From a virus: 45,635 bases of DNA. The translations under genes and the position numbers were made by a program. Each line of letters starts with the position of its first letter. The first letter of the stretch is position 1. The notes below the pieces were generated by a model that saw only the letters and a program-made list of their open reading frames with translations, ran no database searches and was not told the origin of the DNA. Shown here in pieces: positions 9,224-43,521 of the stretch. The DNA is taken from IMG/VR virus record IMGVR_UViG_3300031999_001333, positions 1 to 45,635 of that record; one strand, given 5' to 3'.

Positions 9224-12200
9224 ATGGAACAAAATCAAAATAATCTAACTATTTGGCAAAGATTATCTCAAGTATTTGGTCCGAATTCTTTATTAGGTCA
9301 AGATTTACCAACATACAAACTTGATAAAACAGAGTTATTAAGAACCACAGATAAGAAAGAATACGAACTTGAGAAATTACAAACTCAACAATCAATGTAC
9401 CTGTCGGGACAATGGGCAAAGATTGAGAATAACTTATACACACAAGCGGTTTATTATGAACCAACAAGATTAGCATCATTTTATGATTATGAATCAATGG
9501 AGTTTACTCCTGAAATTTCTACTGCCTTGGATATCTATTCTGAAGAATCAACTACCGCAGATCAAGATGGTTATATATTACAGATATATTCTGAATCAAA
9601 AAGAATAAAAGGAATATTAGCAGATTTATTTAATAATATTTTAGATATTAACACCAATCTTGCAATGTGGACAAGAAATACCCCTATTAGAGAGGATAGT
9701 ATGATACCATTATTAGATGGGACTGAAATAACTATTAAAGAATTATCCGATAGAGTTAAATCTGGTGAAGAAATTTGGTCTTACGCAATACAAGATGGTA
9801 CAAAAGCAATTGTTCCTAGTAAAATTATATGGTGTGACCTTACTAGAAAAGATAGTGAATTAATAAGAGTCACTTTGGATGATGGGACATATATTGATAC
9901 AACACCAGATCACGAGTATATGCTTAGAGATGGGTCATATAAACGAGCTGACTCTTTAACTGAAGGACAATCTTTGATGCCTTTTTACACTAGAAAAAGT
10001 GAAAAGAAACAAGATTGTATTGTTGGTTACGAAAAAATATATAACCCTAGTACTACTAAATATAAATTTACACATTCTTTAGTTGCACATGAATGTGTTA
10101 GGGATTTAGAATATGAAAAATCTATTGGTAGTCAGTTTGACACACATCATTATGATTTTAATAAATTAAATAATAACCCTAATAATTTAATTAGATTAAC
10201 GCATTCGGATCATTTCAAACTGCATGTAGAACATTTTGATAAAATATTGGGCTCACCAGAAGTGGTTAAAAAAAGAATGGTGGGTGTTGATAAATATCTT
10301 AGGTCTGATAAAAGAAAACAAAGATTGTCTCAAGAAATGTCCGGCATTTACCCTAAATATTTTGAACAATATAATTTTAGTGATTTACATACAGAACACA
10401 ATAAAATTCGTTCTGAAAAAATGTTAAATAATTGGGATTCTGTAGAATTTACAGAAAAAACTAAAAAAGGTATGACTATTGAAATTAGTGATGATTGTTT
10501 AGAATATATTTCAAATTTAATTATTAATAACGAAAATTATATCGGAATCAATAAACTATCAGAATTATTAAAAAATGATGATGATTTTATTCAACTTTTT
10601 AAGGTTAATTATTCATTAAGAAAAGATATAAAAAAATCAATTAACCCAACAACACTTAATAAAGTTATTTTTAGAAAAACTAATAAAAATTATTTTGATT
10701 TTGTTTTAGGTGTTAAACCAATCCTTATTTTAGATAAATCGTATATAAAAGCAAAATCAATTTATTTAGGTAAAACAAAAGAAAATCACTTATTAAACCA
10801 TAAAGTGGTTTCTGTTGTTAAATTAATTGAAACATCGGATGTGTATTGTTTAGAAGCTGTTGGACCTAACGGTGAACACGATAGACACAACTTTCCAGTG
10901 TTAGGTAAGGACATAAATGGTTCATACTCAAGAACTTCTGGTGTGTTTTTATCCAACTGTAAATACGGAGATAACTTTGTTTACTTAAAACTTGATCCTG
11001 AAAAAGGTATTGTTGGTTGTATGCAATTACCTAATATTGAAATTGAACGATTAGAGAGGGGTATGGCGGCAAAATCGGTAAATGCCGAAGTTGACCCAAA
11101 ATCAAAAGGTTTAAGATTCCATTGGAAAATTAAAGATATGGAATTTAACTCCTGGGAGATTGCCCACTTTAGATTATTGGGTGATGATAGAAAACTTCCT
11201 TACGGTACTTCTATGTTAGAAAAAGCAAGACGTATATGGAAACAATTATTATTATCTGAAGATGCAATGTTAATTTATCGTACATCAAGAGCTCCTGAAC
11301 GAAGAGTATTTAAAGTTTTTGTTGGTAATATGGATGATAAAGATGTTGAATCATATGTTCAGCGTGTTGCAAACAAATTCAAACGAGATCAAGTAGTGGA
11401 TTCAAAGACAGGTAATGTTGATATGAGATTTAACCAAATGGCGGTAGATCAAGATTATTTTGTTCCTGTAAGAGATGTTGCACAAACAATGCCGATTGAG
11501 ACATTAGCAGGAGCTCAAAACTTGTCTGAAATTGCGGATATTGAATACATTCAAAAGAAATTGGTAACCGCATTAAGAGTTCCTAAAGCGTATTTAGGAT
11601 TTGAGGAAGTTGTTGGTGACGGTAAGAATCTATCATTACAAGATATTCGTTTTGCAAGAACTATTAATAAGATACAAAAAAGTATGATTGCCGAAATGAA
11701 TAAAATTGCAATCATTCACCTATACTTATTAGGATTTGAGGATGAATTACAAAACTTTACATTAGGTCTTACAAACCCATCCAAACAAGCAGATTTATTG
11801 ATGATTGATGTGTGGAAAGAAAAAGTTCTTTTATATAAAGATTTGGTTACTGAAATTCCTAACACAATCCAACCAACATCCGCAACTTGGGCTAAAAAAC
11901 ACATTTTTGGATTCTCTGATGAAGATATTAAATTGGATGTCCAACAAATTAGATTAGAAAGAGCGGTTGCTGCAGAACTTACTAATACTCCAACAATAAT
12001 CACACATACAGGTATGTTTGATACTGTTGATAAATTATACAAAAGTAAATCAGGAACAACTCAAAATGCCGCACCACCAGCTGAAGGAGGTGAACCGCCT
12101 ATGGGAGGAGGAATGCCACCTATGGGTCCTGATATGGGAGGAGAACCTGATATGGGAGGTGAAGCACCACCACCATTACCGGAAAATAAAGAAAAAAATA

Positions 12201-12319
12201 ATTTAAATATTTTGTTAGAAAGTGACGATTTCCACGAGGATTCTTACATTGATTTAGGTAAAGCGAGAAATTCTTTAGGTTCAATGGAAGATGCATTGAG
12301 CAAATTGTTAAGAGATTGA
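9224..12319 (+). CDS. Portal protein (T4 gp20-like) interrupted by an intein
   Basis: The portal dodecamer forms the DNA entry vertex, nucleates head assembly and docks the terminase. The N-extein (residues 1 to about 152) ends in D-I-N-T-N-L-A-M-W-T-R-N. The C-extein resumes at C-K-Y-G-D-N-F-V-Y-L-K-L-D, then W-E-I-A-H-F-R-L-L-G-D, L-P-Y-G-T-S-M-L-E-K-A-R-R-I-W-K-Q-L, R-A-P-E-R-R-V-F, and the A-L-R-V-P-K-A-Y-L-G-F-E region, all typical of gp20 homologues. Removing the intein leaves about 605 residues. The C-terminus has a Gly/Pro/Met-rich stretch (repeated M-G-G and P-P-M-G) followed by an acidic helical tail. If the intein fails to splice, no portal is made, so splicing is under strong selection. 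Confidence 0.95.
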   Translation: MEQNQNNLTIWQRLSQVFGPNSLLGQDLPTYKLDKTELLRTTDKKEYELEKLQTQQSMYLSGQWAKIENNLYTQAVYYEPTRLASFYDYESMEFTPEISTALDIYSEESTTADQDGYILQIYSESKRIKGILADLFNNILDINTNLAMWTRNTPIREDSMIPLLDGTEITIKELSDRVKSGEEIWSYAIQDGTKAIVPSKIIWCDLTRKDSELIRVTLDDGTYIDTTPDHEYMLRDGSYKRADSLTEGQSLMPFYTRKSEKKQDCIVGYEKIYNPSTTKYKFTHSLVAHECVRDLEYEKSIGSQFDTHHYDFNKLNNNPNNLIRLTHSDHFKLHVEHFDKILGSPEVVKKRMVGVDKYLRSDKRKQRLSQEMSGIYPKYFEQYNFSDLHTEHNKIRSEKMLNNWDSVEFTEKTKKGMTIEISDDCLEYISNLIINNENYIGINKLSELLKNDDDFIQLFKVNYSLRKDIKKSINPTTLNKVIFRKTNKNYFDFVLGVKPILILDKSYIKAKSIYLGKTKENHLLNHKVVSVVKLIETSDVYCLEAVGPNGEHDRHNFPVLGKDINGSYSRTSGVFLSNCKYGDNFVYLKLDPEKGIVGCMQLPNIEIERLERGMAAKSVNAEVDPKSKGLRFHWKIKDMEFNSWEIAHFRLLGDDRKLPYGTSMLEKARRIWKQLLLSEDAMLIYRTSRAPERRVFKVFVGNMDDKDVESYVQRVANKFKRDQVVDSKTGNVDMRFNQMAVDQDYFVPVRDVAQTMPIETLAGAQNLSEIADIEYIQKKLVTALRVPKAYLGFEEVVGDGKNLSLQDIRFARTINKIQKSMIAEMNKIAIIHLYLLGFEDELQNFTLGLTNPSKQADLLMIDVWKEKVLLYKDLVTEIPNTIQPTSATWAKKHIFGFSDEDIKLDVQQIRLERAVAAELTNTPTIITHTGMFDTVDKLYKSKSGTTQNAAPPAEGGEPPMGGGMPPMGPDMGGEPDMGGEAPPPLPENKEKNNLNILLESDDFHEDSYIDLGKARNSLGSMEDALSKLLRD
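9680..10957 (+). mobile_element. Contiguous intein with HNH homing endonuclease, in the portal gene
   Basis: About 425 residues inside the portal protein form a Hint module plus endonuclease. The start is P-I-R-E-D-S-M-I-P-L-L-D-G-T-E-I-T-I-K-E-L. Block B is T-T-P-D-H-E-Y-M-L (T-x-x-H present). The HNH domain contains T-H-H-Y-D-F-N, N-N-P-N-N-L-I-R-L and H-S-D-H-F-K-L-H. Block F is D-V-Y-C-L-E-A-V with H-N-F-P-V. The end is V-F-L-S-N before Cys+1. The first intein residue is Thr153 or Pro154 of the precursor, not the usual Cys/Ser, and the penultimate residue is Ser instead of His. The exact left boundary is uncertain by one residue. Confidence 0.88.
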
Positions 12320-34729: not shown

Positions 34730-35299
34730 TTATGATGTTAGTTTATTGTAGTAACTAATTGGTTGATTCCAAATAGCACATTTCTTACCGTAATAATTAT
34801 AAACAGAATCCCAAAAAAGAAAATCTTTATGGTTGACACCTGGTATATGTTCTTTAGGCCATTTACATTCGGACAAACAAGAATGGTGTGACAATACATT
34901 ACCGGTATCAATTCTACCAAATACAGGTTTACTTGCAATTAAACGAAGTTTATTTTTAAAATTCAATTGTTCCCCAACTAACATACCTCTAAAATTATAT
35001 TCCGAACACTCCAAGTATTTCATATACATATTTTCGTGAAAAACTGTGTCATCATCTAAAAAACAAAAATATCCATTATTAATTTCTTTTAAAATTTCAT
35101 TCCTTTTTTTAAAAATTTCATTATCCTCACAATCAATACTATAAATTTTTATATTTTTATCTTTTAAAAAACTTAAATCAGGTAAATCTCTTTTATTAGA
35201 ATGGGATATGTGCCAAACAATATCGTCATTCCTTAATATAGAATTATATATTAATTCTATATTTTCATATCTATAAAGTGGGGTTATTATGTGTAGCAT
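34730..35299 (-). CDS. Short GT-A-fold glycosyltransferase
   Basis: This 189-residue protein starts M-L-H-I-I-T-P-L-Y-R-Y-E-N-I and has the donor-binding acidic motif Y-F-C-F-L-D-D-D-T-V. It ends with H-K-D-F-L-F-W-D and I-S-Y-Y-N-K-L. It is shorter than most GT2 enzymes, consistent with a single catalytic domain. It is the first (downstream-most) gene of the sugar-modification cluster and lies 5 nt from the aminotransferase gene. Substrate is unknown. Confidence 0.75.
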   Translation of the reverse strand: MLHIITPLYRYENIELIYNSILRNDDIVWHISHSNKRDLPDLSFLKDKNIKIYSIDCEDNEIFKKRNEILKEINNGYFCFLDDDTVFHENMYMKYLECSEYNFRGMLVGEQLNFKNKLRLIASKPVFGRIDTGNVLSHHSCLSECKWPKEHIPGVNHKDFLFWDSVYNYYGKKCAIWNQPISYYNKLTS

Positions 35300-35303
35300 A
35301 TTT

Positions 35304-35894
35304 TTATTTAAAAATTGTATTAGTTGTTAAATCTTTATATTCTTCAGTTAAGTCGGCATTAAATGACGGAAAATTTTGCATTAACATTAATCCTTGAGCC
35401 GCCTCAACAGGTGTCATATACATATTCCATCCAATCATTTGGATATCATCATCAATATATTTTGTTTCACTTCTCCCTTCATACCTAACTTTTTTAAACC
35501 ACTCCACCGCATCTTTATTGTCCGTCAAAATCATTCCTCCTTTACCAATCTTCAAATGTTTTTTAATATGGAATGATAAACACATAAATGTGTTGGGTAT
35601 ATACATATTACTTGTAAACCTTTTTGCCGAGTCGTATAATGAATATGGTTCCAATTGATAAATTCCTTCCCATTCTACGTCTTGGAATTTAACTTTACCT
35701 CCGGCGTGTATAATTGATTGGGGTACCGATAAATAAGTTTTTTTGGGGATAGTAACTTCTTTCACATTCAAGTATTTACAACATAAAAAAATTGCATTAG
35801 TGCAACTATCTACGGAAATTGCGTAAGGTGATCCGGTATATTCGGCAACTTCCTCCTCAAACATTTGAACTATTTTATATGGGTTGTGTTTCAT
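35304..35894 (-). CDS. Short DegT/DnrJ/EryC1-type aminotransferase
   Basis: DegT-family enzymes transfer an amino group to a keto sugar nucleotide using PLP. Visible motifs: A-I-S-V-D-S-C-T-N-A-I near residue 25, the PLP-region acid in L-Y-D-S-A-K-R (Asp88), and the Schiff-base region L-S-F-H-I-K-K-H-L-K-I-G-K-G-G with Lys112. It is only 196 residues, about half the usual 370. It keeps the PLP domain, but the C-terminal small domain is reduced to a short tail. It may be a compact active enzyme or a degenerate one. It overlaps the sulfotransferase gene by 4 nt. Confidence 0.8.
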   Translation of the reverse strand: MKHNPYKIVQMFEEEVAEYTGSPYAISVDSCTNAIFLCCKYLNVKEVTIPKKTYLSVPQSIIHAGGKVKFQDVEWEGIYQLEPYSLYDSAKRFTSNMYIPNTFMCLSFHIKKHLKIGKGGMILTDNKDAVEWFKKVRYEGRSETKYIDDDIQMIGWNMYMTPVEAAQGLMLMQNFPSFNADLTEEYKDLTTNTIFK

Positions 35895-36466: not shown

Positions 36467-37108
36467 TTAATTATTATTTTTAATTATTTTACACGGAGTT
36501 CCATAGGCAACAACATTGTCGGGTATATCTTTAGTAACTAAAGAACCTGCACCAATAATGACGTTATTACCAATTTTAACTCCGTCAATTATATTAGCCC
36601 CAATGCCAATTAAACATTCTTCACCTATTATTACATTTCCCGCAATATTAACTCCGGGATTTATGGTTGTGTATTTACCTATACTAGTGTGGTGACCAAT
36701 ACTAACATTTCTGTTAATAAAAACAAAATCATCAATTTTAGAATAACCGGCAATACAACTATTAACATTAATTGAAACTCCTTTACCTATCTCAACCGTT
36801 TTTGAAATGTTGGATTTACTAGAAATTAAATTAATTAAGTTTTGATTAATGTCAATATTAAAAGTATTACAGATTTTTTTCTTGATATTAGGAGTTGTAA
36901 CTCCTAATATAATTAATTTATCGTCAATTTCAACACTGCTAATTAAATTAATGTTAAACCTTGGGTGTTTGTATTTTTTATTGGGTATTAAATTTAAATT
37001 ATTGATCACATCAATGACGGGATAAATTTCTTGAGAATCTAAAATGTCCAACAACATTGTTAACGCACCCTCACTAAAACCTAATATTGTTAATTTTTTT
37101 ATTTCCAT
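36467..37108 (-). CDS. NeuD/PglD-like sugar acyltransferase (left-handed beta-helix)
   Basis: This 213-residue enzyme has an N-terminal Rossmann-like domain (I-K-K-L-T-I-L-G-F-S-E-G-A) and a C-terminal hexapeptide-repeat beta-helix: I-S-K-T-V-E-I-G-K-G-V-S-I-N, H-H-T-S-I-G-K-Y-T-T-I-N-P-G-V, I-G-E-E-C-L-I-G-I-G-A-N, I-I-D-G-V-K-I-G-N-N-V-I-I-G-A-G-S-L-V-T-K-D-I-P. The S-I-G-H-H-T-S-I-G stretch matches the catalytic His of PglD. Such enzymes N- or O-acylate amino sugars with acyl-CoA. The gene overlaps the upstream BKACE gene by 35 nt, suggesting coupled synthesis. The donor may not be acetyl-CoA if the BKACE enzyme supplies an unusual acyl-CoA (inference). Confidence 0.88.
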   Translation of the reverse strand: MEIKKLTILGFSEGALTMLLDILDSQEIYPVIDVINNLNLIPNKKYKHPRFNINLISSVEIDDKLIILGVTTPNIKKKICNTFNIDINQNLINLISSKSNISKTVEIGKGVSINVNSCIAGYSKIDDFVFINRNVSIGHHTSIGKYTTINPGVNIAGNVIIGEECLIGIGANIIDGVKIGNNVIIGAGSLVTKDIPDNVVAYGTPCKIIKNNN

Positions 37109-37907
37109 ATCCTAAATTTTTAAATTCTTTTGGGGTTAATAGTTCCACACCCATATTATCCATAATATTATGAACCCGGGTTAATAATTCCATATTTGTA
37201 GTAATTTCTTTATCTTTAAAATACAAATTATCCTCAAGTCCAACCCTAACTCCGTCGGCGTAAAGTAATCCTAATATGTTAGAATTTAATTGATCCTTCC
37301 CAATACCCCCAAAACAAACTTTAGCGTTTTCAGGTAAATTGTCCACTACGGAAGACAATGTGGATGAATCCATTTGAGCGTTATAGATATTACCAAAAAT
37401 CATATTCATATAATGGGGACCTTTTAATATACCCTTTTTGATTAAATAATTTGTGTAATTTATCATTCCCGAATCAAAACATTCTATCTCGGGAGTTACT
37501 CCATATTCATCCATTTTTTCAATCAACTTTAAAATCATATCAGGTTCATTTATTGATGCCGATTTTGGGAAATTAATTGACGACATTGTTAACGATCCCA
37601 TATCGGGATATAACTCCAATACTTCAGATCTTTTTTCAAATTCGGGATATAATCTACCGGTTAAAGAAACACAGATAGTTAAATCGGGACAATATTTTCT
37701 AATCCCTTCAATAGTTGGTTGATAAATTTCTTTTTTATATGTGTTTGAATAATCCTTTGTATCCCTTGCGTGTATGTGTACCATAGTTATACCCAATTCA
37801 AACGCTTGGTGAACCTCTTCAATGATTTCGTTAGGTAATAAAGGAGCGTTAGAATTTTCCCTTGTAGTTTGAGTTCCAGTGGGGGTAAAATTTATTATTT
37901 TTTTCAT
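37074..37907 (-). CDS. Beta-keto acid cleavage enzyme (BKACE, DUF849)
   Basis: BKACE enzymes cleave a beta-keto acid with acetyl-CoA to give acetoacetate and a new acyl-CoA. The 277-residue protein shows M-V-H-I-H-A-R-D (His44 and His46 as Zn ligands), a TIM-barrel pattern of strands, E-I-E-C-F-D-S-G, and D-G-V-R-V-G-L-E-D-N (Arg221, Glu225), matching the metal and substrate residues known from Kce. The length is normal. BKACE proteins are usually bacterial lysine- or carnitine-catabolism enzymes. In a phage the most telling clue is the 35-nt overlap with an acyltransferase in a sugar cluster. The keto-acid substrate is unknown. Confidence 0.9.
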   Translation of the reverse strand: MKKIINFTPTGTQTTRENSNAPLLPNEIIEEVHQAFELGITMVHIHARDTKDYSNTYKKEIYQPTIEGIRKYCPDLTICVSLTGRLYPEFEKRSEVLELYPDMGSLTMSSINFPKSASINEPDMILKLIEKMDEYGVTPEIECFDSGMINYTNYLIKKGILKGPHYMNMIFGNIYNAQMDSSTLSSVVDNLPENAKVCFGGIGKDQLNSNILGLLYADGVRVGLEDNLYFKDKEITTNMELLTRVHNIMDNMGVELLTPKEFKNLGYGNKKINNIRF

Positions 37908-37910
37908 AAA

Positions 37911-39422
37911 TTATATTGACACTAATTTATTTTTAATTGATTCAAACTTTTCCTTAACCATTGGAACTAAATTTTGATGATAATCTTGTTTTAATTTATT
38001 TAAATTATCGGGATCTTCGTTTCTTGTTGTTGATTCATAATGATATGCCACACCATCACCACATAAATAATTTGAAAACCCCATAGAAATCGCTTTTACA
38101 TTTAATTCAACATCCTCAAAACAAGAAATATAGTTTTCATTAAATAAACCACACAACTCAAATGTTCTTTTTCTTATCATTAGTAAACCACCCGTATTTC
38201 CAAAAACTTCGGTAGTTGCGTTAAAAAAATTATAATAATTCCTAATGTTTAAATGATCAACACCTAACGATGAGTTAGCTTTATTTATCCCCATATATAT
38301 TCCGTCGTGCTGAATTGTATTATCCGCAAAATGTAATCTACACCCAACCGTACCGGCTTTTTTATGTTTATCGTAAATACTTAACATTCCGGTGATGATA
38401 TCGTTAAGAATTTTAATATCGTTATTACAAAATAATAAAAATTCGTATTCATCACCTATGTGGTTTTTAACCACATCATTATTAATCTTTGCAAAATTAT
38501 AATAGTCGTATTCAATTAATTTAACATTATTAAATTGTGATATGTTTAATTTTATTTGATTTTTTTCTTCTTCGGTTGATCCGGTGTCCGCAATAAAAAT
38601 GTCAAACCTATCAGATTTACAATGTTCAAAAAATGAATTGATACAATCCGTTAACATCTCAACCTTACCTTTAGTTGGTATTATTACCGCAATTCTACCC
38701 AATTTATTAAATGTTTTTTCTTTTATGTGTGGAACATAAACGGATTCAGGTTTTAAATCCAAAGGTAATTTACTAATATATTTTTCCAAGAACTTATCCT
38801 TACTTTCCCAAAATTCTTGATTTGGTTGTCCGACAGATTGATGGGTAATCTCAAAAGAAGATGTTACACCAATTTTAACTCCATCTAAATAGTTAGGAAT
38901 TGCAAATCCGTGATCGTAAAAATGGAACTTACCATATGATTCATCAAACTTATGTTTGATTTTTGTTTTATCAAAGGATATGAATAATCCGTCAACAGTT
39001 ACAACGGGAACCAAAAAAGGTAATTTTGGTGAATATTTACTTAAAAATTTTTTTTGTCCTTCAGGGTGGTGATAAACCTGACCAACCATTGTTTGTCGTA
39101 ATCTCTCCCAATACACACCTGACTCTGGAAAATAGCAAGATCCTGCCTTCCCAATTATACCAAATTCGGGATTATTAGAAAAATCTTCTAATAACTTTTT
39201 ACCCCAACCTTTTTCAAGTTTAATATCATTATGACAACAAACTACAATGTCGTATTTAGAATCTTTTATTCCTTTATTGTAGAGTTCGGATAATGAATAT
39301 TCATTAAAATTCTTATAAGGTAAAATTTGGATCCACTGAAGTCCTGAAGTTAATACAAGATGATCGTTAAACTTATCATTGTATTCTTTATCTTTATGTG
39401 TTGAGTATATTATTGTTATCAT
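37911..39422 (-). CDS. Two-domain glycosyltransferase (tandem GT-A folds)
   Basis: This 503-residue protein has two GT-A-like domains. Domain 1 (residues about 1-225) begins M-I-T-I-I-Y-S-T-H-K-D-K with an acidic motif V-V-C-C-H-N-D-I-K and W-G-K-K-L-L-E-D-F. Domain 2 (about 236-490) begins R-I-A-V-I-I-P-T-K-G-K, with D-I-F-I-A-D-T-G-S-T, F-L-L-F-C-N-N-D-I-K and C-F-E-D-V-E-L-N-V-K, a classic GT2 pattern. Tandem arrangement suggests two successive sugar additions, or one active and one binding domain. It lies directly upstream of the BKACE gene in the minus-strand chain. Confidence 0.85.
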   Translation of the reverse strand: MITIIYSTHKDKEYNDKFNDHLVLTSGLQWIQILPYKNFNEYSLSELYNKGIKDSKYDIVVCCHNDIKLEKGWGKKLLEDFSNNPEFGIIGKAGSCYFPESGVYWERLRQTMVGQVYHHPEGQKKFLSKYSPKLPFLVPVVTVDGLFISFDKTKIKHKFDESYGKFHFYDHGFAIPNYLDGVKIGVTSSFEITHQSVGQPNQEFWESKDKFLEKYISKLPLDLKPESVYVPHIKEKTFNKLGRIAVIIPTKGKVEMLTDCINSFFEHCKSDRFDIFIADTGSTEEEKNQIKLNISQFNNVKLIEYDYYNFAKINNDVVKNHIGDEYEFLLFCNNDIKILNDIITGMLSIYDKHKKAGTVGCRLHFADNTIQHDGIYMGINKANSSLGVDHLNIRNYYNFFNATTEVFGNTGGLLMIRKRTFELCGLFNENYISCFEDVELNVKAISMGFSNYLCGDGVAYHYESTTRNEDPDNLNKLKQDYHQNLVPMVKEKFESIKNKLVSI

Positions 39423-39431
39423 TATTTTATT

Positions 39432-40280
39432 TTAAATTTCATTTAATCCCCAATTTTCAGGGTAATAGTCGGGGTTATAGTATGTTTGATTACAATTTCC
39501 TGCTAAATTTTTATTTGAGTGAAAAACTTTTCCGTTGTTAAAGTTTTTAACATACCACATTTGCCACCAACTAAAAGTAGAGCTACCTCCAATAAAATTA
39601 TCACATAATGCACCTAAAATAAATTGATCCATTGGGTTATTATGGTAATATTTAAAATTGTTTGAGTGGGTATGAGTATTATTTGGTTCCGCAAATAAAA
39701 ATCCTTTATCTTTAAAATAAATTTTACACCACTCAATATCATCAGAAAAAATAATAACATTATAATCTTTAAAATTTGGAAATTCTTTTTTAAGGGTATC
39801 TTCGTACCAAGTTTCAGGTATTTGATAAAAACAACTATGATTTACAAAATCACCTCTTCTCACACCAATACCAATAGTCGGTTTATTAAAAAATAGTTTA
39901 TATTTTTCTTTAACTTCATTTATCTTATCTTCTTTAATTTCCAAACAAGATTTAATGTAGTCAAAATCATCATAAAACCATTTTTCAGATTGTAAATTTG
40001 AAGAAATTTGAACGTTAATGAGTTTATCTTTATTTTTTTCAAAAAAATTCTTTATAAACATTTTTTCATCTTTAGAATAATTATTTTGTCTAAACTTGAA
40101 TTCGGTGTCGTAATTACTGTCGTTATTTATTTTGGGGGGGTTTTTTAAATAATCCCATAAAAAATAATCAGGTAACTCAATATCATTACCTGAATGTTTT
40201 GCGAAGTATTTTAAACCTGAATATAAAAATAACCAATTACCTAATCTTAAATGATTTCCCCATCCATTAAATTTTATCAT
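39432..40280 (-). CDS. Family 11-like (alpha-1,2-fucosyl) glycosyltransferase
   Basis: This 282-residue protein starts M-I-K-F-N-G-W-G-N-H-L-R-L-G-N-W-L-F-L-Y. It has the family 11 donor-binding block T-I-G-I-G-V-R-R-G-D-F, then V-I-I-F-S-D-D-I-E-W-C, and the third block D-N-F-I-G-G-S-S-T-F-S-W-W. Together they identify a GT11-type enzyme, typically using GDP-fucose. No GDP-fucose synthesis genes are visible, so the host may supply the donor. A stretch of seven C preceded by six A in the coding strand (40135-40147) sits near codon 46. It overlaps the neighbouring glycosyltransferase start by one base. Confidence 0.82.
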   Translation of the reverse strand: MIKFNGWGNHLRLGNWLFLYSGLKYFAKHSGNDIELPDYFLWDYLKNPPKINNDSNYDTEFKFRQNNYSKDEKMFIKNFFEKNKDKLINVQISSNLQSEKWFYDDFDYIKSCLEIKEDKINEVKEKYKLFFNKPTIGIGVRRGDFVNHSCFYQIPETWYEDTLKKEFPNFKDYNVIIFSDDIEWCKIYFKDKGFLFAEPNNTHTHSNNFKYYHNNPMDQFILGALCDNFIGGSSTFSWWQMWYVKNFNNGKVFHSNKNLAGNCNQTYYNPDYYPENWGLNEI

Positions 40281-40987
40281 TATCTTACTTTAATTCTATT
40301 ATTTATCCCATTGGTGTAATATTCATTATGTGTGGAATCAGGTAATCCATAATGAAAATTCCATCCCATTCTCGTACTATGTTCACTTCTCCTTTTTGCC
40401 AAAATATGTGCTCTGTTTAACCCATTATCCCAACTTCTCCATTTTGTATGGTATAAATTAGGTCTATCTTCCGCAAATTTAATAAGATACCCATTTTTTG
40501 GGTTAGGTCTTTCGGTGTGACTTCCCGCACCAAAGTTCATATTCTCAATTTCATTTTTGTTAAATATTGCAGATTTTGAATATCCGTCACTTTGACATCC
40601 ATATAATAAATTTTCTATAGATTCTCCTTCTCCAAACATTTCGTATCCAATACATTTTCCGACATTCCATTTCGCGTCATCTAATATTTTATGGGTGATG
40701 TCAACAAATTCGTCTGAATCAACAATGATTATCCATTCCGAATCGCTATTACGCCAAATATTATTTCTTAACCCCATTAATGTTTGTTCATCCATAAATC
40801 CATTAGTGTTATAAGATATAACATTACAACCATTATTTTTTGCAATTTCAACTGTTCTATCATCACTTTCATTATCAATGATAGTTATTTTTGAATTTGG
40901 TAATTTTAATTTATACCAATCAATAAAATCTTGTATAATGTTCTCCTCATTCCAAAAGATACCAAATACTTCTACACTTCTATTCAT
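40280..40987 (-). CDS. GT2-type glycosyltransferase
   Basis: This 235-residue protein is a compact GT-A fold: E-V-F-G-I-F-W-N-E-E-N-I-I, I-T-I-I-D-N-E-S-D-D-R-T-V-E-I-A, I-I-I-V-D-S-D-E-F-V (D-x-D metal site). It ends with an Arg/Asn-rich H-Y-G-L-P-D-S-T segment. It belongs to the family 2/92-like group that acts on surface glycans. It overlaps both neighbours by a few bases, so the cluster is a tight operon. Acceptor and donor are unknown. Confidence 0.85.
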   Translation of the reverse strand: MNRSVEVFGIFWNEENIIQDFIDWYKLKLPNSKITIIDNESDDRTVEIAKNNGCNVISYNTNGFMDEQTLMGLRNNIWRNSDSEWIIIVDSDEFVDITHKILDDAKWNVGKCIGYEMFGEGESIENLLYGCQSDGYSKSAIFNKNEIENMNFGAGSHTERPNPKNGYLIKFAEDRPNLYHTKWRSWDNGLNRAHILAKRRSEHSTRMGWNFHYGLPDSTHNEYYTNGINNRIKVR

Positions 40988-41589
40988 AATAATTCATTTA
41001 AAAATTTATCAACACTAATTAGGTTTAATAATTGATTTCTATTTGTGTCAAAATAATACCAATCATTTATACCTTTATTATAAGATTCTTCACCCATCTT
41101 ATGTATTGGTTTCTTATTCTTTATTATTACACCAACACCCCAATCAGTATCTACAGTATAATACATATGGTTAGTATTATCTCTTTGAAATTTTAAAACG
41201 GATTTGTATACATCCCCATTCCAAGTTTCTTGTATTTGTGGTACTGCCGCGTGATTTGGTGTTGGTGGATTACAATCGTGTAATAAAATAACTCCATCAT
41301 CTTTAGTCCATTTTAAAGAATTTATTATATCCACATCAACCTGTTCAGAATGATGCAAACCATCAATAAATACAATGTCGTATTTTTTGTTATTTTGATT
41401 AAAAAATTCATTAGAACCCATTGGATAATTAACTTCCTCAATTAAAACATTTTCAATTCCTGGATCAACACCATCTTTATTCTCACATTCAATTTCTTTA
41501 ATACATTCTCCTTTAAAAACACCTATTTCTAGATATTCTTTAAAATTGTATTTTTTTATAAATTTGTTTATTATTTCGTAACGATACAT
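40984..41589 (-). CDS. SAM-dependent methyltransferase
   Basis: This 201-residue class I methyltransferase has motif I E-Y-L-E-I-G-V-F-K-G-E-C, then Y-D-I-V-F-I-D-G-L-H-H-S-E-Q-V-D-V-D and W-T-K-D-D-G-V-I-L-L-H-D-C-N-P-P, typical of the Methyltransf_24-type proteins encoded in polysaccharide loci. It could methylate a sugar or glycan end. It is the first gene of the sugar cluster on the minus strand, followed by the GT2 gene with a 4-nt overlap. The upstream gap to the dUTPase fragment is short. Confidence 0.82.
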   Translation of the reverse strand: MYRYEIINKFIKKYNFKEYLEIGVFKGECIKEIECENKDGVDPGIENVLIEEVNYPMGSNEFFNQNNKKYDIVFIDGLHHSEQVDVDIINSLKWTKDDGVILLHDCNPPTPNHAAVPQIQETWNGDVYKSVLKFQRDNTNHMYYTVDTDWGVGVIIKNKKPIHKMGEESYNKGINDWYYFDTNRNQLLNLISVDKFLNELL

Positions 41590-41616: not shown

Positions 41617-41919
41617 TTATATTCCTGTCGATCCAAAACCGTTATCTCCTCGGTCTTTATCGTTTATGTTTTTTACTTTGGTAAATTTAATCCATTTACC
41701 ACAAGCAACGGATGAAAAAACCGCTTGAGCAATCTTTTGTCCTTTTTCTATTATTATCTGATGATTGTTGGTATTAAATACAATAACTTGTATTTCTCCC
41801 GTATAACCACAATTATGAATTAGATGATCATTACAAAAAAAATTATGATTATTAGATACCGTAATATCATAGGTTTGCTTTTTTAAACTTGATATTTTTT
41901 TTATTTTAGTTGTTTTCAT
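41617..41919 (-). CDS. Split-intein C-segment plus dUTPase C-terminal half
   Basis: Residues 1-36 are an intein C-segment: K-I-K-K-I-S-S-L-K-K-Q-T-Y-D-I-T-V then N-N-H-N-F-F-C-N-D-H-L-I-H-N (blocks F and G, ending His-Asn). From Cys37 the dUTPase resumes: C-G-Y-T-G-E-I-Q-V (second half of motif III), G-Q-K-I-A-Q-A-V (motif IV) and D-R-G-D-N-G-F-G-S-T-G (motif V). The gene starts with its own ATG, which overlaps the endonuclease gene stop by 14 nt. After trans-splicing with the 43521 product the enzyme is complete. dUTPase converts dUTP to dUMP, keeping uracil out of phage DNA. Confidence 0.92.
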   Translation of the reverse strand: MKTTKIKKISSLKKQTYDITVSNNHNFFCNDHLIHNCGYTGEIQVIVFNTNNHQIIIEKGQKIAQAVFSSVACGKWIKFTKVKNINDKDRGDNGFGSTGI

Positions 41920-42790
41920 TTATAAAAGTTTTTAAATCATTTACACTATAAAATATTTTATAGTTTTTATATATTTGTTTTGTATAATACTCCTTAATGT
42001 CAACCTCCTCAGTGTTCCACCTTTTCATTTCAATAATATAGGATAACCCATTATTAAATTCAACCAAAAAATCAGGAATATAGTGTCTATTTATGTTGTT
42101 ATAAAAATATTTTATTCTAATCCCATGTTTATTTGTCCATGTTTTAATTTGAGTAGATGAATCAAATAATTTCATTGATTCTAGTTCATAAGAAGATGAA
42201 TACATAAAAATTTCATTACTTTTTGAAGTATACTTACCGGTTTTATATTTATTGGATTGGTTAGTGATTATTCCATCGGAATATAGTTGTGATATTTTTT
42301 TAGACATATTTTCTCTGTATTCTAACGATTTTTTACATCTTCCGTCGTTTAATGACTTTTTTATTGATTCTATTGTTTTTTTTCTGTATTCATTATTTTC
42401 CCACCTTTCTTTTGATGCTTTAGATATTTTTTTAATTCTTTCGTCAGATACTACCCATTTTTTAAACTCTTCCGATGATTTCCAATTAGTAAACCCAGAA
42501 AAAATTTCAGGAGTTTCCATATGGATTTTTTTAATTTTTTCAGACATACTTTTCCTAAATTCAGGATCTTTATGCGTTATATTTCTAATTTTTATTTGTT
42601 TATCCCTATACTCGGGGTTTAACCAAATCTTTTTTGATCTTTCCGATATTTTTTTTAACTCATCATTTGATTTTACTTGAGAACCAACAAACATTAATTT
42701 ATAGTCCGAACTCGTTATTTTATGTTCAAATTTTAAGTGCTCAACTATTGAACAATTTTTTTCTACCCCACAAATTAAACATTTCACCAT
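41906..42790 (-). CDS. Homing endonuclease, EDxHD/Vsr-like with zinc-finger and helical repeats
   Basis: This 294-residue protein begins V-K-C-L-I-C-G-V-E and E-H-L-K-F-E-H, a Cys2/His2-like finger (residues 4-23). The middle (40-180) is a run of Lys/Arg-rich helical repeats resembling nuclease-associated modules that bind DNA: S-E-R-S-K-K-I-W, S-E-K-I-K-K-I, S-K-K-I-S-Q-L-Y. The C-terminus has E202/E204, D210, H236-Y-I-P-D240-F, and E254-M-K, matching the E-D-x-H-D and E-x-K layout of the Vsr-like family exemplified by I-Bth0305I. It lies in the gap of the split dUTPase. It would cut uninterrupted dUTPase genes so that the element is copied. A TATTTATC element precedes it. Confidence 0.85.
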   Translation of the reverse strand: MVKCLICGVEKNCSIVEHLKFEHKITSSDYKLMFVGSQVKSNDELKKISERSKKIWLNPEYRDKQIKIRNITHKDPEFRKSMSEKIKKIHMETPEIFSGFTNWKSSEEFKKWVVSDERIKKISKASKERWENNEYRKKTIESIKKSLNDGRCKKSLEYRENMSKKISQLYSDGIITNQSNKYKTGKYTSKSNEIFMYSSSYELESMKLFDSSTQIKTWTNKHGIRIKYFYNNINRHYIPDFLVEFNNGLSYIIEMKRWNTEEVDIKEYYTKQIYKNYKIFYSVNDLKTFINENN

Positions 42791-42809
42791 AATACCCTTT
42801 ATCTTTATT

Positions 42810-42817
42810 GATAAATA
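42810..42817 (-). promoter_or_regulatory. TATTTATC element upstream of the endonuclease gene (minus)
   Basis: On the minus strand ACTATTTATCAATAAAG, 19 nt before the ATG at 42790, just after the N-intein stop. Confidence 0.35.
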
Positions 42818-42828
42818 GTATGGTGGTG

Positions 42829-43521
42829 TTAAAAAATTATGATTTCATCATTTTCTGTCAAATTTTTCGCCAATTTAATTCCGTCTTTAGTGTAAACCTC
42901 ACTATTAAGGGTAACCTCAATCACTCCATGTACGGTTTCAATTAATAAAATTTCTTGGATACCTGTATCAAAAATGGACGATACAACATCTTTCTCAACC
43001 TCTAAAGTGTCTTCATTAAACGAATAAACAATATCCCCAATTATCAGTTCTTTGATTGTCTTATCTCCGTCAATTGTTAATATCTTCATGTCTTCGGAAA
43101 AACAATCCACCGTTCCCGGTGAGTTTAAAACCATAATCCCTTGTTTTAATGCTAACCCACTTTTTGATCTTACCTGAAGTTCATAATGTTCGGGAATATC
43201 AATGTGTAAACCTGTTGGAACCAAACTTCTACCAAATGGAGGAATGATAATTTCTTCCGTTGAGTATAAGTCAAACCCAGAATCTGTCGGATATGCGTAT
43301 TGAGGTTCTACAGAATCTTCACGACTAAAAGAGTAATTAACATTCATCTTCTGTTCGTATTTTTCCATATCTCTTTCTAACTCGTTAATATCAACACCAA
43401 ACTCATTAATTATTGCTTGGTAGTCAAGTTCTTCATCATCGTCAAACATATCTTCAAAATCTTGAAGTTTTGATATTAAATCTTCAAAATTCTCATCTTC
43501 GTAATATTCTCCTTCAGTCAT
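42829..43521 (-). CDS. dut: dUTPase N-terminal half plus split-intein N-segment
   Basis: Residues 1-60 are an acidic helical leader not found in most dUTPases. The dUTPase then shows motif I (A-Y-P-T-D-S-G-F-D-L-Y-S, 76-87), motif II (R-S-K-S-G-L-A-L-K-Q-G, 118-128) and the first half of motif III (N-S-P-G-T-V-D, to 139). From Cys140 the N-intein begins (C-F-S-E-D-M-K-I-L-T, block A) and runs 91 residues to the stop. Block B reads V-T-L-N-S-E-V-Y-T-K-D-G, with Ser where T-x-x-H normally has His. The two halves must rejoin for the trimeric enzyme to work. Confidence 0.93.
   Translation of the reverse strand: MTEGEYYEDENFEDLISKLQDFEDMFDDDEELDYQAIINEFGVDINELERDMEKYEQKMNVNYSFSREDSVEPQYAYPTDSGFDLYSTEEIIIPPFGRSLVPTGLHIDIPEHYELQVRSKSGLALKQGIMVLNSPGTVDCFSEDMKILTIDGDKTIKELIIGDIVYSFNEDTLEVEKDVVSSIFDTGIQEILLIETVHGVIEVTLNSEVYTKDGIKLAKNLTENDEIIIF

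Follow-up and report, generated by a model that had tools for sequence, protein, structure and literature searches.

Described BKACEs and sugar acyltransferases

Enzymes of the beta-keto acid cleavage enzyme family (BKACE or DUF849; PF05853) release acyl-CoA from beta-keto acids (PMC11961710), reacting a beta-keto acid with acetyl-CoA to give acetoacetate and an acyl-CoA of reduced length (PMC11961710, PMC12871164, PMC4922564). Solved members include CcaKce (2Y7D), 3NO5 and PdKce/BKACE15 (8RIP), and Tyr145 of CcaKce is the proposed catalytic tyrosine (PMC12871164). BsfD, a flavophos C-acetyltransferase that belongs to the same fold family and acts on a phosphonate (9ZSC), has a phenylalanine in place of this tyrosine and C-acetylates rather than cleaves, and loss of the tyrosine has been tied to this different chemistry (preprint PMC12871164).

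The perosamine N-acetyltransferase PerB (4EA7) and its relatives PglD, VioB and NeuD have a hexapeptide fold and a catalytic histidine, and those members with structures are named acetyltransferases. In Flavobacterium psychrophilum, a PglD homologue within the O-antigen genes wfpC-G lies next to genes that have been suggested to assemble its 3,5-dihydroxyhexanoyl donor on ACP by means of ketoacyl synthases and a reductase (PMC6519341). The phage locus described here likewise places a PglD-like protein beside a candidate gene for an unusual donor, but in our proposal the donor would be made on CoA, by a BKACE. In the literature that could be searched, we found no description of a link between a BKACE and an acyltransferase, and no report of a BKACE in an O-antigen locus or among phage auxiliary genes. 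The recurrence of the pair, documented below, suggests that surface glycans are decorated in a manner not yet described.

A BKACE gene overlaps a NeuD-like gene in a phage glycan cassette

The window, by which we mean the whole 45,635-base IMG/VR virus record that was analyzed, derives from a tailed phage. Genes for a terminase, a portal protein and a major head protein are present in it, indicating that the BKACE and NeuD-like genes are viral. The gene for the BKACE, the proposed acyl-CoA producer, encodes 277 amino acids from an ATG (37074–37907, minus strand) and runs into the start of a gene, also opening with ATG, for a 213-aa NeuD/PglD-like left-handed beta-helix acyltransferase (36467–37108, minus strand). 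The first-pass annotation, which did not state the strand, had given this overlap as 35 nt, and that figure is exact (37074–37108, minus strand). Overlaps of 29–35 nt are present in most viral pairs, and the overlap is 32 nt in the bacterium Emticicia (L096).

The pair lies within a glycosyltransferase/sulfotransferase cassette, all of it on the minus strand. On one side are three glycosyltransferases, namely a 503-aa protein with two GT2-type domains (37911–39422), a family 11, fucosyltransferase-like enzyme (39432–40280) and a family 2 enzyme (40280–40987), followed by a methyltransferase (Methyltransf_24; 40984–41589). On the other side are a sulfotransferase (PF17784; 35891–36463) that is also present in the Emticicia cassette, a half-length homologue of DegT/DnrJ/EryC1/StrS aminotransferases (35304–35894), and a protein with weak similarity to glycosyltransferases (34730–35299), a homologue of which is encoded at position +2 relative to the BKACE in Emticicia L096. 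The genes of the pair are under purifying selection (for the BKACE, dN is 0.051 versus a dS of 0.553 between the window and locus L002) and their arrangement recurs in dozens of viral contigs; it is not due to chance.

The first-pass annotation had suggested that the nearby DegT gene could make the amino sugar. A DegT homologue is indeed present, but at 196 aa it is about half of the normal length (~360 aa); ~60 residues from the interior, along with the C-terminal domain, are missing, so that it does not span the complete large and small domains, while the region of the pyridoxal phosphate (PLP) lysine is conserved. This "mini-DegT" was found in 21 of the 30 loci compared, and is therefore not a random truncation. 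An alignment of the phage protein with 15 viral homologues shows lengths of 196–224 aa and retention of both the PLP lysine and a glycine motif.

Active-site residues of the phage BKACE and its acyltransferase partner

The phage BKACE matches PF05853 over its full length (residues 3–264; 5e-66; 223.3 bits versus a cut-off of 24.8), and its matches to solved structures predict a TIM-barrel fold. Residues H44, H46, R221 and E225 align with H46, H48, R226 and E230 of CcaKce, D226 aligns with D231, and all five are invariant in the 30 viral rows of the alignment. H44, H46 and E225 correspond to the Zn ligands of Kce. The claim of the first-pass annotation that all Zn-binding and substrate-orienting residues are present thus holds for H44, H46, R221 and E225, but four other positions differ from Kce, with E14 replaced by Q13, N108 by T107, Y145 by F144 and H224 by G219. 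The E14 position holds no acidic residue, which speaks against a cationic substrate of the kind used by Kce. The clade to which the phage protein belongs (see below) is of the same family as the solved BKACEs and has the Zn ligands and the equivalents of R226 and D231 in common with them, but has residues of its own at S/T83, R85, T107, S109 and G219, and differs from Kce in having Q, I or V at E14 and F at Y145. The invariant Arg85, an alanine in CcaKce, sits in the loop after strand 3.

Phe144 is present in every viral and cellular member of the clade, none of which has the tyrosine proposed to be catalytic in Kce. Among 76 control BKACEs, 47 likewise have phenylalanine at this position, as do the structures 3no5, 3fa5 and 3chv, making it doubtful that the tyrosine is a valid mark of a BKACE. 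For the same reason, we rejected Phe144 as proof of BsfD-like chemistry. BsfD shares with the phage protein the phenylalanine and a glutamine at the position of Kce E14, but it falls outside the clade, contains a loop insertion, and has no described acyltransferase partner. As far as can be read from sequence, the phage protein is a member of the BKACE fold family, which is not the same as a proven cleavage enzyme.

The acyltransferase matches the hexapeptide model PF00132 (59.4 bits) and scores just under the cut-off of TIGR03570, which covers NeuD, PglB and VioB (150.5 bits versus 160.8; the corresponding partner in Dethiosulfatibacter scores 176). Its H139 aligns, without gaps, with the catalytic histidine of PerB that was altered in mutants 4EAA and 4EAB.

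The gene pair recurs in viruses, bacteria and archaea

The first-pass annotation had named absence of the pair from other genomes as grounds for abandoning the link between the two enzymes. We found the opposite: the pair occurs again in many viruses and in bacteria of numerous phyla. An initial search of viral sequences yielded 39 BKACE loci (29 distinct sequences), and a NeuD gene was located next door or one gene away in all 28 that were uncut. In a wider search, NeuD was present within two genes of 52 of 54 distinct viral BKACEs; one of the two exceptions is cut by the end of its contig, and in the other (L385, represented by three contigs) a GNAT-family acetyltransferase gene lies directly downstream of the BKACE gene instead. 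In the opposite direction, among uncut viral NeuDs sharing at least 44% identity over the full length, all 30 are encoded within two genes of a BKACE. These data exclude the possibility that the pair is a one-off. The annotated GenBank phage records searched contained no match. Directly before the BKACE gene in 14 viral loci, and nearby in two more, is a gene for a ~320-aa protein (e.g. L022:7049–8014) without a match in Pfam or NCBIfam.

Scanning bacterial and archaeal genomes with a profile of the viral BKACEs, and choosing loci by BKACE sequence alone (motifs IINFTPTG and PDM[GA]SLTM), gave 80 cellular loci, 79 of which were analyzable. An acyltransferase gene directly flanks the BKACE gene in 68 of the 79, with NeuD in 31 cases and a GNAT (PF00583 or PF13527) in 37. 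Among the remaining 11, an archaeal locus (L164) contains an AAC(3)-type acetyltransferase gene (Antibiotic_NAT) beside the BKACE gene, GNAT genes are located at +2 in L118 and L146, NeuD is at -2 in L105 and a few genes away in L102 and L132, and no acyltransferase was recognized near the BKACE in L128, L129 and L100.

For the control set, genomes were picked at random from four groups and their BKACEs taken, to which we added the remaining six BKACEs of Dethiosulfatibacter and the second BKACE of the L173 genome. Of these, 75 fall outside the clade, and not one adjoins a NeuD or a GNAT of this kind, as judged with these two models and a 1.5 kb flank; the one control that falls inside the clade, L221, has NeuD at -2. 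The GNAT model was built from the neighbors themselves, leaving the NeuD counts as the only ones unaffected by it; for this reason, and because the rows are related, the value obtained by Fisher's test for neighbors of clade versus control BKACEs (2e-32) should not be read as a probability.

Tree and REARRANGEMENT: one BKACE clade, changing gene orders and exchanged partners

In the tree, a branch with support of 99–100 sets off the viral BKACEs together with their cellular relatives, and this clade includes none of five solved reference sequences. The main viral set groups with Emticicia (support 100), and the viral sequences L385 and L389 fall elsewhere in the clade, suggesting that viruses acquired the module on three or more occasions. 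Few genomes carry the gene, and these are scattered; an alignment search of 196 genomes of one order found it in only two, the starting genome and one with a broken copy, a distribution that fits horizontal spread.

The order of the two genes is BKACE–NeuD in 43 rows and NeuD–BKACE in 16, with at least seven changes on the tree, indicating that the pairing persists through rearrangement. The paired NeuDs do not form one group in the NeuD tree, on which there are seven changes between the paired and unpaired state. Between the window and L002, the BKACEs are 90% identical and the NeuDs 48%, and between L034 and L032 the dS is 0.14 for the BKACE gene and 1.57 for the NeuD gene; L041 shows the reverse, with 95% identity for NeuD and 77% for the BKACE. 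Retention of the BKACE while NeuD is swapped would fit a single, fixed acyl donor used with varied acceptors. BKACE and NeuD distances mirror each other with a correlation of 0.80 over all pairs and 0.34 for bacteria only, which we do not take as evidence.

Proposed function of the pair and alternative explanations

Comparative genomics provides good support for a functional link between the BKACE and the acyltransferase, with a NeuD neighbor for 52 of 54 viral BKACEs and a NeuD or GNAT neighbor for 68 of 79 cellular BKACEs versus 0 of 75 controls. To this extent the first-pass annotation, in which the two enzymes were connected by an unusual acyl-CoA, is borne out; the reaction catalyzed, the acyl group, the use of the product as a donor, the acceptor, and the placement of the glycan on the virion or host surface are what we infer. 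We propose that the two overlapping genes form a module consisting of a donor-maker and a transferase. The BKACE would combine a small neutral or anionic beta-keto acid with acetyl-CoA in a Zn-dependent Claisen/retro-Claisen transfer that yields acetoacetate and a new acyl-CoA, and the NeuD-like enzyme would pass the acyl moiety on to an amine, for which the amino group of a nucleotide-linked amino sugar is the likeliest candidate. The acylated sugar would then be incorporated into a glycan built by the neighboring glycosyltransferases, for use on the virion or the host surface. Production of an acyl-CoA by the BKACE through retro-Claisen transfer, with the neighboring transferase placing the acyl group on an amino sugar or other amine, is the explanation we favor, with a probability of roughly 0.6. 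Acyl-CoA is a natural common currency for the NeuD, GNAT and AAC(3)-type enzymes, unrelated families that fill the same place beside the BKACE. No conserved gene for production of a beta-keto acid was recognized among the neighbors, suggesting that this substrate is a host metabolite.

An enzyme with this fold need not cleave, and the activity of BsfD counts against cleavage here (PMC12871164): the phage protein could, as BsfD does, C-acylate a beta-keto compound, in this case to a diketone, with the acyltransferase acting on that diketone or separately. Phe144 occupies the position of BsfD Phe166 (PMC12871164), Arg85 lies in the loop in which BsfD has the phosphonate-binding Arg91, and no NCBIfam equivalog cut-off is reached. 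We nevertheless consider such a reaction unlikely, since phenylalanine is too widespread among BKACEs to mark BsfD chemistry, the ~20-residue loop insertion of BsfD is missing, and a free diketone is no donor for a NeuD or GNAT enzyme, leaving the pairing unexplained. A BKACE working in reverse, or balancing CoA and acetoacetate, could instead convert acetoacetate and an acyl-CoA to acetyl-CoA for an ordinary N-acetyltransferase, given that the reaction is reversible and that reverse activity of BKACE15 has been used in an assay (PMC11961710); this is very unlikely, however, because acetyl-CoA is ubiquitous, such that a dedicated neighbor would add nothing, and acetoacetate is not expected to be abundant. 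We give almost no credence to a catabolic auxiliary metabolic gene that feeds the infected cell, for example by lysine fermentation (Kce) or 3-oxoadipate cleavage. The best NCBIfam models are those for Kce and 3-oxoadipate:acetyl-CoA acetyltransferase (NF053568), but the scores are half of the curated cut-offs (188.9 of 382 and 165.3 of 350, respectively) and, together with the separation of the phage BKACE from control BKACEs in the tree, led us to reject either identity; moreover, Kce Glu14 is a glutamine here and the neighbors are glycan genes.

The genes might also share a cassette without sharing a substrate, merely traveling together in surface-glycan islands while their products act on different molecules. 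Such islands are mosaic, and hexapeptide acyltransferases are common, most Bacteroidia genomes containing 7–25 TIGR03570 matches. By a rough estimate (~15 such genes per 3,500, and two neighbors), however, adjacency to a hexapeptide gene would arise by chance in roughly 1% of cases, and direct adjacency is seen in some ten phyla as well as several lineages of viruses, with either gene first and often with overlap. GNAT-partnered pairs also occur away from glycan islands, and when 30 NeuD loci were drawn from random Bacteroidia genomes, none had a BKACE nearby, which rules out the abundance of NeuD as the cause of the adjacency. Co-travel therefore appears distinctly unlikely, and the donor-maker/transferase module remains our preferred explanation.

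BKACEs are known mainly from catabolism; with a clade tied to acyltransferases, retro-Claisen chemistry would gain a biosynthetic role, the supply of a tailored donor for glycan decoration. A broader version of the proposal, to which we would give slightly less than an even chance, is that this previously unrecognized clade, with members in bacteria, archaea and no fewer than three virus lineages, makes one acyl-CoA otherwise unavailable in the cell, that NeuD, GNAT and AAC(3)-type enzymes attach it as an N-acyl group to glycans or other amines, and that phages use it to remodel virion or host-surface glycans. The pair would represent a rare phage example of acyl-donor metabolism, offers a testable route to new N-acyl sugars, and provides a way to approach the substrate of BKACEs in a clade where we found no characterized member.

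Genomic context of the cellular relatives

As to the presence of the pair in bacterial O-antigen loci, a check put forward in the first-pass annotation, several cellular pairs lie with genes for DegT aminotransferases, RmlA, WbqC and glycosyltransferases, i.e., in amino-sugar loci. In Dethiosulfatibacter the order is NeuD-BKACE-DegT-RmlA, and the six other BKACEs of this organism have no such neighbor. Emticicia encodes the BKACE, NeuD, the glycosyltransferase-like protein and the sulfotransferase, a near-match to the phage cassette. Many flavobacterial BKACE-GNAT pairs are located near ATP-grasp and CapK-like genes, or alone, without sugar genes. WbqC-like proteins, for which literature titles and abstracts yielded no description of function, are encoded close to the BKACE, no more than a few genes away, in 13 cellular loci (L156, L112, L122, L133, L149 and others), mostly NeuD-paired, and in some viral loci.

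A member on a Salmonella plasmid falls inside the clade and is located, without an acyltransferase, in a cluster with genes for gamma-glutamyltransferase, RibD, RibA, a methyltransferase and riboflavin synthase, suggesting that members of the clade may also act in other pathways. This Salmonella plasmid (L393, 5474–11841; Salmonella Karamoja pRSE21) and L394 carry the nearest plasmid BKACEs, whose clusters share the gamma-glutamyltransferase, RibA, methyltransferase and riboflavin synthase genes, with RibD in Salmonella, and are reminiscent of azapteridine (pteridine-like) biosynthesis.

Two other genes in the window appear to be interrupted. The portal gene (9224–12319) encodes 1031 amino acids and has HNH-endonuclease matches at residues 259–375, and thus probably carries an intein. 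The ORF at 41617–43521 opens with what resembles the C-terminus of an intein, continues with dUTPase-like sequence and adjoins an HNH-like ORF (41906–42790), giving the appearance of a dUTPase gene into which an intein or homing element has inserted.
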